Part shown: positions 6,168 to 28,295 of the stretch, in pieces
How positions within the stretch are numbered: position 1 is the first letter of the stretch
How the letters are laid out: every line of letters begins with the position of its first letter
Program-made: the position numbers and the translations under genes
The notes under the pieces: model-generated
Seen by the model: the letters and a program-made list of their open reading frames with translations, nothing else
Database searches by the model: none
What the model was told of the DNA's origin: nothing
NCBI RefSeq assembly: GCF_025947225.1
Contig: NZ_CP110005.1
Location: 2,170,001-2,234,000, forward strand
Source: Flavobacterium sp. N2270
Lineage (GTDB): Bacteria; Bacteroidota; Bacteroidia; Flavobacteriales; Flavobacteriaceae
DNA: 64,000 nucleotides
Direction of reading: 5' to 3'

Positions 6168-6495
6168 AAAAGCAGACCTATAAGCCGGATTCTGTATTCC
6201 AATAAATTGAAACCCTTATCATTTATCTAGATTTTACATTACTGTAAAACTCAAGCTGCCTACCCTTCAGCATCGAACGAGTCGCCCTTATTTTAGCGAA
6301 CTAAAAATTGCTGATATACTTGACATTTCACCGCATAGAGTTTACCTGGTTTCACTACAGCATTACCTGTACATACTTTCTGTTGCACTTGTCCTCACCT
6401 CTCGGCGGATGGGCGTTACCCATTATGCTACTCTTTGGTGTCCGGACTTTCCTCCCTTTCGATGAATCGAAACGACGATAAGGCGGTCTGCTTTG
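6168..6495 (-). ncRNA. rnpB: RNase P RNA, bacterial class A
   Basis: Read on the minus strand this is the catalytic RNA of RNase P. The 5' end AGCAGACC (about 6492-6485) pairs with the 3' end GGTCTGCT (6178-6171) to form P1. The universal GAGGAAAGTCC lies at 6454-6444 and is followed by ACC, and further on ACAGAAAGTATGTACAGGTAATGC-type sequence (conserved core) and GGTAAACTCTATGCGGTGAAATG are present. The end is followed by a T-run on the minus strand (about 6170-6165). Exact ends are uncertain by several bases. It fills most of the 479-base gap between the flavin reductase and dnaX. Confidence 0.95.
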
Positions 6496-6602
6496 CAAAT
6501 TTAAAATTTAGAATTCACATTAATGCTATTTCTCTCATATTATTTGTGAATAACTTTTAGTAATCTTTTAATTCTACTATTTTACAATCTTTAAATTAAA
6601 TC

Positions 6603-6610
6603 TATATTTG
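6603..6610 (+). promoter_or_regulatory. Possible -7 element of the dnaX promoter
   Basis: TATATTTG matches the Bacteroidota TAnnTTTG element and lies 17 bases before the dnaX ATG, implying a very short 5' leader. No clear TTG is seen about 20 bases upstream, so the call is tentative. Confidence 0.4.
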
Positions 6611-6626
6611 TAGAACAATAGAAATA

Positions 6627-7712
6627 ATGGAACAGTTTATAGTATCAGCCAGAAAATATCGTCCGCAAACATTTAAAGATGTTGTGGGGCAACGTGCTAT
6701 AACAAATACTCTATTAAATGCTATTGAAACCAATCATTTAGCACAAGCACTTTTATTTACAGGACCAAGAGGTGTTGGTAAAACAACTTGTGCGCGTATT
6801 CTAGCTCGTAAAATTAACCAAGAAGGTTATGATGATCCTTTAGAAGATTTTTCATTTAATGTTTTTGAATTAGATGCAGCTTCAAATAATGGTGTTGATG
6901 ATATTAGAAGTATTATTGACCAAGTGAGAATACCTCCTCAAACTGGAAAATACAAAGTTTATATTATTGACGAGGTTCATATGCTTTCATCAGCAGCTTT
7001 TAATGCTTTTCTTAAAACATTAGAAGAGCCACCAAAACATGCTATTTTTATTTTAGCGACTACTGAAAAACATAAGATTATACCAACGATACTTTCGAGA
7101 TGTCAAATATTTGATTTTAAGAGAATTACGGTTAATGACGCTAAAGAACATTTAGCCGAAATAGCAAATGAACAAGGTGTAACTTTTGAAGATGATGCTT
7201 TGCATATTATTGCTCAAAAAGCAGATGGTGCAATGCGTGATGCTTTATCTATTTTTGATAGAGTGGTTTCTTATTGCGGAAATAACCTTACTAGGCAAGC
7301 AGTTACTGAAAATTTAAATGTTTTAGATTTTGAATATTATATCAAAATAACAGATTTGTTATTAGAAAATAAAATTCCAGAATTGCTTATTTCTTATAAT
7401 GATATCTTAGCCAAAGGTTTTGATGGACATCATTTTATTGCTGGTTTAGCCTCGCATTTTAGAGATTTATTGGTATGCCAAAATCCTGCAACATTAGTGC
7501 TTTTAGAATCTGGTGAGCAAGCAAGATTATTGTATCAACAACAATCTGTTAAAGCTTCTCAATCATTTTTACTTCAAGGAATTGAATTGGCTAATGATTG
7601 TGACTTGAAATTCAAACAAAGTCAAAATCAACGCTTATTAGTTGAATTATGCTTAATGCAAATTGCCTCTATCAACTTTGATGGAGAAAAAAAAAAGCTA
7701 AATCCTATATAA
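6627..7712 (+). CDS. dnaX: DNA polymerase III gamma subunit (zero-frame product of dnaX)
   Basis: The zero-frame 361-residue product is the clamp-loader ATPase part of DnaX. It shows Walker A GPRGVGKTT (46-54), Walker B with DEVH (115-118), sensor 1 region FILATTEKHK, and the SRC arginine-finger motif (157-159), followed by domain III ending near residue 350. It lacks the zinc-binding cysteines that E. coli DnaX has between the two Walker motifs. The frame ends abruptly at TAA 7710-7712, just after an A10 tract, leaving out the C-terminal tau region that lies directly downstream in the -1 frame. This is therefore either a gamma-like short product or one half of a frameshifted gene. Confidence 0.9.
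   Translation: MEQFIVSARKYRPQTFKDVVGQRAITNTLLNAIETNHLAQALLFTGPRGVGKTTCARILARKINQEGYDDPLEDFSFNVFELDAASNNGVDDIRSIIDQVRIPPQTGKYKVYIIDEVHMLSSAAFNAFLKTLEEPPKHAIFILATTEKHKIIPTILSRCQIFDFKRITVNDAKEHLAEIANEQGVTFEDDALHIIAQKADGAMRDALSIFDRVVSYCGNNLTRQAVTENLNVLDFEYYIKITDLLLENKIPELLISYNDILAKGFDGHHFIAGLASHFRDLLVCQNPATLVLLESGEQARLLYQQQSVKASQSFLLQGIELANDCDLKFKQSQNQRLLVELCLMQIASINFDGEKKKLNPI
7686..7712 (+). other. dnaX: Slippery A10 tract in dnaX with stops in two frames
   Basis: Ten A residues (7687-7696) precede G7697, giving A AAA AAG in the phase needed for -1 ribosomal slippage, the same heptamer used by E. coli dnaX. The zero frame stops at 7710-7712, and the frame reached by losing one A stops at 7699-7701. 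Only the frame reached by a -1 shift (or one added A in the mRNA) continues, to 8347. No strong stimulatory stem-loop follows (only 5-bp candidates), so RNA polymerase slippage is as likely as ribosomal shifting. A homopolymer sequencing error is the alternative. Confidence 0.6.
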
Positions 7713-8347
7713 TTCCTGCTACATATTTTAGAAATAGTTCTTATTCTATTGTAGAACAGACTTCTAAAGTTGTGAAAAATGAAGAAATCCCTATTCAACC
7801 AATTATTGTATCTAATATAGTTGAAGAAGTTAAACAACCTATTTTAGATAAAACTAATATCACTCCTGAAAATAAAAATAAGTCTGAAACAAAAATTTCG
7901 GCTTTATCTTTATCAAGTATTAAAGCTAAAAAGGAGTTAGAAGCAAAACAACTTATTCATACTAAACACGATGGAGAATTACCTACAGAAACTTTCTCTG
8001 AAACTAACATGTTATTATTGTGGAATAAATTTGCTGCACGTTTAGCTGACCAAAACAAAAGGCTAATGGCAACTTATATGCTAATGAGTAAACCAACTCT
8101 AAATTGTCCTATAATAACGATTGAACTTCCAAATGAAAGTACAAAAATAGAATTTGAAGCCGGAAATAATGAACTTTTAGGCTATTTAAGAGGAAAGCTT
8201 CATAACCATGACATTACAATTGAAGTAATAGTAAATGAGACGGTAGAAACAAAATATGCTTTTACTCCAGATGATAAGTATGAGAAGCTCAAAAGTATAA
8301 ACCCTACAATGGAATTACTAAGGAAAGTTTTTGATTTAGATGTATAA
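7697..8347 (+). CDS. dnaX: DnaX tau-specific C-terminal region (reached by -1 frameshift)
   Basis: This frame is open from within the A10 tract to the TAA at 8347 and reads AKSYIIPATYFRNSS onward, the sequence expected to continue DnaX after the GEKKK junction. Joined by a -1 shift it gives a tau protein of 573 residues, a normal length for the phylum. It holds a charged linker and a C-terminal domain (LWNKFAARLADQNKRL...ELLRKVFDLDV) that in tau contacts polymerase alpha and helicase. An internal GTG at 7772 could be called as a start but has no supporting evidence as an independent gene. Confidence 0.8.
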   Translation, partial: AKSYIIPATYFRNSSYSIVEQTSKVVKNEEIPIQPIIVSNIVEEVKQPILDKTNITPENKNKSETKISALSLSSIKAKKELEAKQLIHTKHDGELPTETFSETNMLLLWNKFAARLADQNKRLMATYMLMSKPTLNCPIITIELPNESTKIEFEAGNNELLGYLRGKLHNHDITIEVIVNETVETKYAFTPDDKYEKLKSINPTMELLRKVFDLDV

Positions 8348-8349
8348 TA

Positions 8350-8385
8350 AATAATAGAGCTCTGAATTATCAGAGCTCTATTATT
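8350..8385. terminator. Bidirectional hairpin between dnaX and CAP lipoprotein
   Basis: A perfect 16-bp inverted repeat (AATAATAGAGCTCTGA, loop ATTA, TCAGAGCTCTATTATT) sits between two convergent genes and should terminate both. Confidence 0.8.
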
Positions 8386-8406
8386 ACAACTAACTTTAAA
8401 AATATA

Positions 8407-27312: not shown

Positions 27313-27348
27313 AAAAAAGGTTTTAAGCAGCAACTTAAAACCTTTTTT
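27313..27348 (-). terminator. Terminator-like hairpin between ccoP and ccoG
   Basis: AAAAAAGGTTTTAAG (27313-27327), loop of six, CTTAAAACCTTTTTT (27334-27348): 15 base pairs. On the minus transcript it ends in a T-run, so it could partly terminate transcription after ccoP and lower expression of the assembly genes, or stabilise the upstream message. Confidence 0.7.
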
Positions 27349-27350
27349 TT

Positions 27351-28295
27351 TTAATTTGTTACTGTAGAATCAACAACAGTTACATTTGCTGCTTCATCAT
27401 TTGTTGCACCACCATCTTCTTTATAAATAACTGCCTCAGGTTCAGTCGGTTTTGGATCTTTAGGATTTGTACCTTGAAGAGAAAGAACATAGCTAGCTAC
27501 TTTTTGCATCTCAGTAGGTTTTAATTGATCTTTCCAAGATATCATACCTTTTCCAGAACGTCCTCCCTCTGAAAGAGTATTAAATACATTTTTAATTCCT
27601 CCACCTAATATCCAATATTCATCTGTTAAATTTGGACCAATTGCTCCACCTCCATCAGCTCTATGGCATGCAACACAATTTGTTGTAAATAAAGCCTTAC
27701 CTTCAGCTAACGATGGTTCATCTGTTAATAAAGTAACACTTTCTTTATCCATTAAATCAGGTGCCGTTTTAAGATATTCTTGAATTTCTTTTTCTGCTAA
27801 AGCAACTTCAGTTTCATACTCTTCTGCTTGAGAATAATCTCCGTAAATTTCAAAACGAACAAAATAAACTATTGCAAAAACAATACAAGAATAGAATAAA
27901 TATACCCACCAAGGTGGCAATACATTATCTAACTCTTTAATACCGTCATAGTCATGGTCTAACATTACATCTGCTTCTTGTTCAATAGCTTTAGATCGTG
28001 TTAGTTTTTTAACTAATTTTTGATAGAAATCACTTTCTGTAAAAGGTAAAGTTTGAGCCTCTTTAAGTTTTTGTTTTTGTTCTTCAGTTAATAATTGATA
28101 AGTAACTTTATCAACTGCACTTATAACAATTTCTATGGCTACTAATAGGAATAAAAAAACACCTAAAAATAATGAAACCATTGGATATTCTATAAAAGCT
28201 GGTTTTTCTCCTGAATCAATAAAGTACTCCATTCCTGCAAAAACTGCAGCAAATATTAATGGAACCCTAACGTATGAAGGAATTATGTTTTTCAT
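27351..28295 (-). CDS. ccoP: cbb3 cytochrome c oxidase subunit CcoP, single heme
   Basis: CcoP is the membrane-anchored cytochrome c subunit of cbb3 oxidase. The ATG at 28295 (MKNIIPSYVRVP) gives 314 residues; a TTG three codons upstream is less likely. It has two N-terminal membrane helices, a third near residue 135 (LPPWWVYLFYSCIVFAIVYFV), and a cytochrome c domain with one CxxCH motif (CVACH) and a later Met (KGMISW) as axial ligand. The classical proteobacterial CcoP has two hemes, this one has one. Confidence 0.92.
   Translation of the reverse strand: MKNIIPSYVRVPLIFAAVFAGMEYFIDSGEKPAFIEYPMVSLFLGVFLFLLVAIEIVISAVDKVTYQLLTEEQKQKLKEAQTLPFTESDFYQKLVKKLTRSKAIEQEADVMLDHDYDGIKELDNVLPPWWVYLFYSCIVFAIVYFVRFEIYGDYSQAEEYETEVALAEKEIQEYLKTAPDLMDKESVTLLTDEPSLAEGKALFTTNCVACHRADGGGAIGPNLTDEYWILGGGIKNVFNTLSEGGRSGKGMISWKDQLKPTEMQKVASYVLSLQGTNPKDPKPTEPEAVIYKEDGGATNDEAANVTVVDSTVTN

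Follow-up and report, generated by a model that had tools for sequence, protein, structure and literature searches.

Probable RNA polymerase slippage at a conserved A10 run in dnaX of Flavobacterium

The clamp-loader gene dnaX of Flavobacterium sp. N2270 can be read in one frame as far as a run of ten adenines and in a different frame beyond it. This raises the question of whether the gene is decayed, wrongly sequenced or programmed to deliver two proteins, and, in the last case, whether it is RNA polymerase or the ribosome that slips. We examined the locus in a 64,000-nucleotide stretch (positions 2170001–2234000) of the complete 2.79 Mb genome (the window; coordinates refer to it unless stated otherwise, and all dnaX features lie on its plus strand) and compared it with relatives up to phylum level. 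Judged from sequence comparison, the conserved programmed slippage site is real and transcriptional slippage is its most likely basis. Programmed slippage at the A10 run, mostly by RNA polymerase and with the aid of a hairpin, probably lets Flavobacterium dnaX make two clamp-loader subunits.

Results

Reading frames of dnaX at the A10 run

The gene starts at 6627 and its A10 run occupies 7687–7696, between G7686 and G7697. Across the run the zero frame reads GAA AAA AAA AAG CTA AAT CCT ATA TAA, with its stop at 7710–7712. The predicted gamma-type product of an unslipped mRNA (6627–7712) is therefore a protein of 361 amino acids that comprises domains I–III followed by EKKKLNPI (ORF list, Pfam and NCBIfam). 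With one A gained the −1 frame (...AAA GCT AAA TCC TAT ATA ATT CCT...) is open to 8347, and a full tau of about 573 amino acids is predicted either from such a gain or from a −1 ribosomal shift. The third frame, entered when one A is lost or two are gained, meets a prompt TAA at 7699–7701. The sequence thus agrees with the original prediction that only the −1 frame continues to 8347.

Consistent with a genuine dnaX gene, an AAA+ N-terminal region and a tau C-terminal region follow each other in consecutive order, and the match to TIGR02397 scored 379.7 bits (cut-off 250). When the two pieces were searched separately against NCBIfam model NF011531 (614 positions), the zero-frame piece covered positions 1–369 (E 7.7e-186, 619.5 bits) and the −1-frame piece positions 435–613 (E 1.2e-20, 74 bits), each scoring below the model's cut-off of 685 bits. 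A Pfam search of the tau-specific C-terminal piece (7697–8347) returned no match. A protein search with this part found 1,105 homologues at E ≤1e-5; it admitted only proteins of 0.55–1.75 times the query length, among which full-length tau proteins cannot appear. Both elements of the predicted split, domains I–III upstream of A10 and a conserved tau region in the −1 frame, were borne out by these matches. The 120 homologues listed of the 1,105 (P0001–P0120) are stand-alone proteins of 136–323 amino acids; those that bear a name are mostly DNA polymerase III gamma/tau or hypothetical, with one 'trehalose utilization protein'. Such stand-alone records are a sign of gene callers splitting dnaX.

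Upstream of dnaX, on the minus strand at 6300–6494, lies a bacterial RNase P RNA of class A (RF00010, 105 bits, with the match truncated at the edge of the region searched). It was the sole Rfam match above the gathering score in 6300–8400.

Conservation of the run

We collected 384 dnaX loci at genus to phylum level, the best 30 per search plus hand-picked stretches, and dropped seven identical ones to retain 377 distinct loci. Eleven genus loci with long open frames and twelve family loci with short ones were added deliberately, so that proportions of layouts in this set are not frequencies. The genus-level set was assigned by similarity; it takes in 79 of the 80 named-scan loci, and some of its members are metagenome-assembled genomes under other names. 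Related dnaX sequences are not independent of each other.

At the end of domain III, 350 of the 377 loci carry a run of at least nine A, and in 287 it is exactly A10. Such a run is present in 127/127 loci at genus, 88/88 at family, 38/42 at order, 69/77 at class and 28/43 at phylum level, and it is exactly A10 in 119 of the 127 genus-level loci. In the 27 loci lacking nine consecutive A, the longest run is 8 (four order loci), 4–7 (eight class loci) or 2–7 (fifteen phylum loci). The N-terminal part of dnaX before the site has a longest A run of 5 or 6 in 301 of 377 loci, and never one longer than 9.

All 40 distinct A/T runs of at least ten in the genome were examined, and dnaX was the sole gene in which such a run separates two different frames, each open for more than 100 codons. 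Three further runs are likewise flanked by open stretches of more than 100 codons: in two (loci L472 and L475) the frame continues unchanged, and one lies between genes. The A10 of L472 (positions 1490–1499 of that locus) lies in frame inside a 392-amino-acid ORF, which by resemblance we take to encode a glycosyltransferase joined to a membrane part; it is possibly another slippage site with a short product. By a crude measure another A10 of the window (27343–27352) resembled the site of a further split gene, but this candidate was rejected, as the run marks the gap between two genes. On the minus strand, this A10 overlaps the stop of the upstream gene and is followed by a terminator-like inverted repeat and the next gene; the flanking genes are presumably ccoP-like, with A10 at its end, and ccoG-like.

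Stops in the non-tau frames are under selection

Both non-tau frames are closed within 10 codons of the run in 96% of 346 loci, against 32–36% elsewhere in the same genes, and within 5 codons in 83% against 12–14%. Prompt closure is weakest in the 14 loci with tau in the +1 frame (79% against 40–48%). The alignment of close relatives proposed as a check of the original prediction therefore spoke in its favour, both in the presence of at least nine A in every genus-level locus and in this closure.

The stop at 7710–7712 is made by a particular codon choice. The tau frame encodes Ile-Ile-Pro after the run, and the first Ile is written ATA, which makes a TAA one base on. The motif is missing in 1 of the 110 −1-frame loci at genus level and in 18 of the 72 frame-0 loci of the family. 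Among the genus-level −1 loci the first Ile is ATA in 97/97 without an earlier stop in that frame and in 4/12 with one (Fisher p 1.3e-9, a value that ignores kinship, the 12 probably being one close-kin group). Of the same 97 loci, just 3 use ATA for the adjacent second Ile, and ATA accounts for 16% of Ile codons. Where tau is in frame 0, the ATA creates a stop in the +1 frame only, and it is nevertheless kept: among loci without an earlier stop the first Ile is ATA in 14/14 at genus level and 51/52 in the family, and of two further frame-0 family loci with an earlier stop one has ATA and one ATT. Since a −1 ribosomal shift never enters the +1 frame, retention of ATA in these loci favours slippage by RNA polymerase. 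Synonymous codon choice is also narrow around the run: when 285 conserved degenerate sites are ordered by their preference for a single synonymous codon, codons 352–356, which comprise the pair preceding the run and the initial three that hold it, all fall within the top seven.

The tau frame has switched repeatedly

Among 346 loci the tau part lies in frame 0 in 158, in −1 in 174 and in +1 in 14. At genus level it is in −1 in 110 of 127, in 0 in 14, in +1 in 2 and unresolved in 1; in the 110 the gene has the reversed two-ORF form, with the zero frame ending just past the run and tau elsewhere. In the family sample tau is in frame 0 in 72 of 88 loci, despite the exceptions added purposely. These frame-0 members often have A10 followed by a TAG in the −1 frame, which makes tau the unslipped product, as in Thermus.

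We reconstructed changes of layout by parsimony on FastTree trees built from the N-terminal protein, which excludes the run. At least 36 changes are required for the 285 A10 loci whose layout is known, where 50 label shuffles gave 88–107, and 52 among the 346 loci of any run length. Some of these changes may be assembly errors, a contribution that restriction to A10 reduces. Depending on the locus, the run begins in any of the three codon phases, and the base after it is G, T or C. The long homopolymer is thus positioned independently of codon phase, as is characteristic of programmed transcriptional slippage, with at least nine A in 350 of 377 loci. Tau also occurs in 0, −1 and +1, the mixed direction among orthologues that Antonov 2013 (PMC3711429, section 10) takes to point to transcription, although only 4 of the 14 '+1' loci have A10 and the other ten have run lengths that are possible assembly errors.

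Unusual lengths were seen in a few genomes. In L051 (Flavobacterium davisii), L086 and L023 the runs are A9, A9 and A12 and the frame after the run is +1; L051 has an apparent further frame break downstream, and its anomaly is likely an assembly error. Three very reduced genomes of about 0.6 Mb from the same order (L268, L269 and L270) have A11 near the same place with the longer frame in +1, and two others of this reduced-genome group (L271 and L272) have only A8. Some of the odd lengths (A9, A11 and A12) may be assembly errors.

A hairpin abuts the run in genus and family

The original prediction correctly stated that no strong stem lies downstream of the run (own site z −0.26), but it missed a strong hairpin upstream. 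This 8-bp hairpin (7667–7686) has the form CTCTATCA-ACTT-TGATGGAG, with the 5′ arm CTCTATCA at 7667–7674, the loop at 7675–7678 and the 3′ arm TGATGGAG at 7679–7686, ending flush on the base before A10. Folding of the 60 bases that end at the run gave z = −4.8 at this site. For the last 40 bases before the run the mean z was −2.6 in the genus (91 of 127 loci below −2) and −1.95 in the family (47 of 88). Folding of the 60-base flanks of the run in relatives used random samples of 40/127 genus, 40/88 family and 38/107 order-and-class loci.

An abutting stem with a score of at least 6 is found in 123/127 genus-level and 70/88 family loci (controls 10% and 9%). Beyond the family it occurs in 11/38 order, 13/69 class and 2/28 phylum loci (controls 11%, 9% and 6%). 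The excess is modest at order and class level (binomial p 0.002 and 0.006 on the assumption of independent loci), and there is none at phylum level. We therefore rejected the hairpin as a phylum-wide feature: a stem flush with the 5′ edge of the run, as in Roseiflexus, is clear in genus and family and not general outside. Its weakness outside the family indicates that it is not needed for the run's retention.

Covariation was assessed on 59 distinct genus and family sequences. Paired cells made up 80.3%, against 77.2% in shuffles, and doubly changed cells numbered 17, against 6.3 in shuffles and 4–10 in slid versions of the stem; for both measures 0 of 500 shuffles were as high. Four pairs changed on both sides, a number reached by 60 of 500 shuffles and hence not exceptional. 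The signal originates in the family sequences. Within the genus alone there was no covariation: a single cell was doubly changed, where shuffles had 0.7, and paired cells were no more frequent than after shuffling. Paired substitutions included GTC with GAC and CTC with GAG, replacing ATC with GAT. In L145 and L223, where the register of the run is shifted, the stem remains at most two bases from it. Four codons that fall partly or wholly within the arms (347, 349, 352 and 353) are among the 21 of 285 sites that keep most strongly to a single synonymous codon. No such bias is seen at codon 348 (0.79), another arm position, where T and C both pair with G. By analogy, it is plausible that this hairpin stimulates slippage.

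RNA polymerase or ribosome

The best-surviving alternative is a programmed −1 ribosomal frameshift, in which tRNA-Lys slips on A AAA AAG and the long product results from the shift. The heptamer is indeed present in zero-frame phase, as in E. coli and as the original prediction had stated, with G7697 as its last base; tau is in the −1 frame in 110/127 genus-level loci, and G follows the run in 126/127. tRNA-Lys(UUU) was present, and CUU was absent, among the tRNA genes at 47 matches. With the heptamer in phase and no tRNA-Lys(CUU) found, −1 shifting is feasible in the genus and would also give tau, and some ribosomal shifting may occur there too.

Ribosomal shifting as the main mechanism is nonetheless unlikely. 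The 60 nt downstream of the run had a mean z of 0.36 in the 40 of 127 genus-level loci sampled, and no Rfam frameshift element matched up to E 10 in 6300–8400; a downstream stem as stimulator was accordingly rejected, there being none in the sampled loci. In E. coli dnaX a Shine–Dalgarno stimulator lies about 10 nt upstream. Here GGAG adjoins the run. A paper on F. johnsoniae translation states that the phylum's members have no Shine–Dalgarno sequences, which we also counted against the ribosome. Runs in other codon phases, and runs with T or C as the next base, are retained as well, and the frame-0 loci conserve a stop that can be reached from +1 only.

RNA polymerase slippage is favoured by the same comparisons. 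The run keeps its length but neither its codon phase nor its next base; the 14 of 346 loci with tau in +1 are unreachable by a −1 shift; and both non-tau frames, rather than one, are promptly closed. Of the original view that ribosomal and RNA polymerase slippage fit equally, the feasibility of a ribosomal share in the genus survives, and the comparative evidence now favours RNA polymerase.

Phase variation, in which DNA replication slippage toggles short and long forms within a population, is very improbable: runs of such length can be unstable in DNA and the layout does differ between species, but dnaX is a replication gene and its run is exactly A10 in 119/127 genus-level loci instead of showing a spread of lengths. 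A homopolymer sequencing or assembly error, the trivial alternative raised at the outset, or a decayed gene can be dismissed, barring an error common to the relatives. Of 127 genus-level loci, 119 have A10 and 110 the same split; the tau part, with its 1,105 homologues, aligns with the DnaX model; and the stop is under codon-level selection. Long A runs are error-prone, and a few relatives do differ in length (A9 in L051 and L086, A12 in L023).

Discussion

Our comparisons strongly support the original prediction that programmed slippage gives gamma and tau with the roles reversed relative to E. coli, as run, prompt non-tau stops and tau frame are conserved, and in genus and family the hairpin also; the two products are predicted ones. 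We infer slippage in the cell, RNA polymerase as its main agent, stimulation by the hairpin and the ratio of products as follows. RNA polymerase would copy the run until it fills the RNA:DNA hybrid, and the nascent hairpin (7667–7686) at the hybrid's upstream edge would loosen it, permitting the transcript to realign with A's gained or lost. An mRNA with ten A's would end translation at 7712 and give the short gamma-type protein of 361 amino acids. One extra A would open the frame to 8347 and give tau of about 573 amino acids, and one A fewer would lead to the stop at 7699–7701 and again to a gamma-type protein.

Extending this to the phylum, we lean towards a reading in which dnaX across the Bacteroidota has a transcriptional slippage site whose length (A10) fits the hybrid of RNA polymerase, with a covarying nascent hairpin adding to its strength in Flavobacteriaceae. 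Because RNA polymerase would feed all three frames, the 'default' product would be nearly free to drift, and the layout would have flipped dozens of times with the two-product output kept. The prompt stops could reflect damage limitation and are not proof that gamma works.

If correct, this would be a cellular case, neither viral nor from a transposon, in which an RNA hairpin and an A run of hybrid length set the ratio of two replication proteins, the run being retained over much of a phylum. The old question of whether gamma is necessary would become testable in a group rich in cultured strains, and the frequent switches of layout would constitute a natural experiment on frame evolution under frame-blind expression. 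For F. johnsoniae, PMC6847099 names a public sequencing data set with ribosome profiling (BioProject PRJNA564991). The reading would also account for records in which a tau part stands as an ORF of its own, labelled 'gamma/tau' or hypothetical, and it would counsel caution, as a real signal may be split or 'mended' when genes are called and genomes polished.

Reversed A10 dnaX genes are already known as a kind. The passages of Antonov 2013 (PMC3711429) that treat dnaX report a reversed two-ORF form in 17 genes from 12 genera, 9 of the 17 with ten A's, and predict transcriptional realignment for dnaX with 10 A. As here, the gene is split at poly-A and recoding is needed for tau; those passages contain no hairpin, codon-selection test or layout switching. 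A text search for 'Flavobacteri' found no occurrence in the main text, the gene sequences being in the supplement. In the main texts of the open literature searched, the breadth of the dnaX run, the repeated layout switches, the selected stops and the hairpin are undescribed.

The passages on Thermus thermophilus dnaX (PMC1088944 and PMC5009743) describe transcriptional slippage at A9, and share with our case an A run, close stops in both non-tau frames, and a single gene for gamma and tau. In Thermus it is tau that arises without slippage, and here it is gamma; those passages mention no upstream hairpin, which is present in Flavobacterium. The −1 frameshift of E. coli dnaX, as far as its description extends, resembles the present site in having A AAA AAG in zero-frame phase and two products (predicted here). 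It differs in that the roles are reversed in Flavobacterium, where the downstream stem, a spaced Shine–Dalgarno stimulator and a match to the Rfam frameshift element are absent. The part of the Atkins review on this subject notes that frameshift-derived tau is the less common arrangement among bacteria, and that a single nucleotide is enough to exchange the roles.

The closest parallel for the hairpin is the Roseiflexus IS630 element (Penno 2015, as described in passages of PMC5009743), where slippage is stimulated by an RNA stem-loop directly 5′ of the run; the same passages give the RNA:DNA hybrid as 9–10 bp. In both systems a run as long as the hybrid is bordered on its upstream side by a hairpin, and it is from this likeness that we infer its role in dnaX. 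In Roseiflexus, however, the run is T5C5, one base is removed and the gene encodes a transposase, whereas the Flavobacterium run is A10 and lies in a replication gene.
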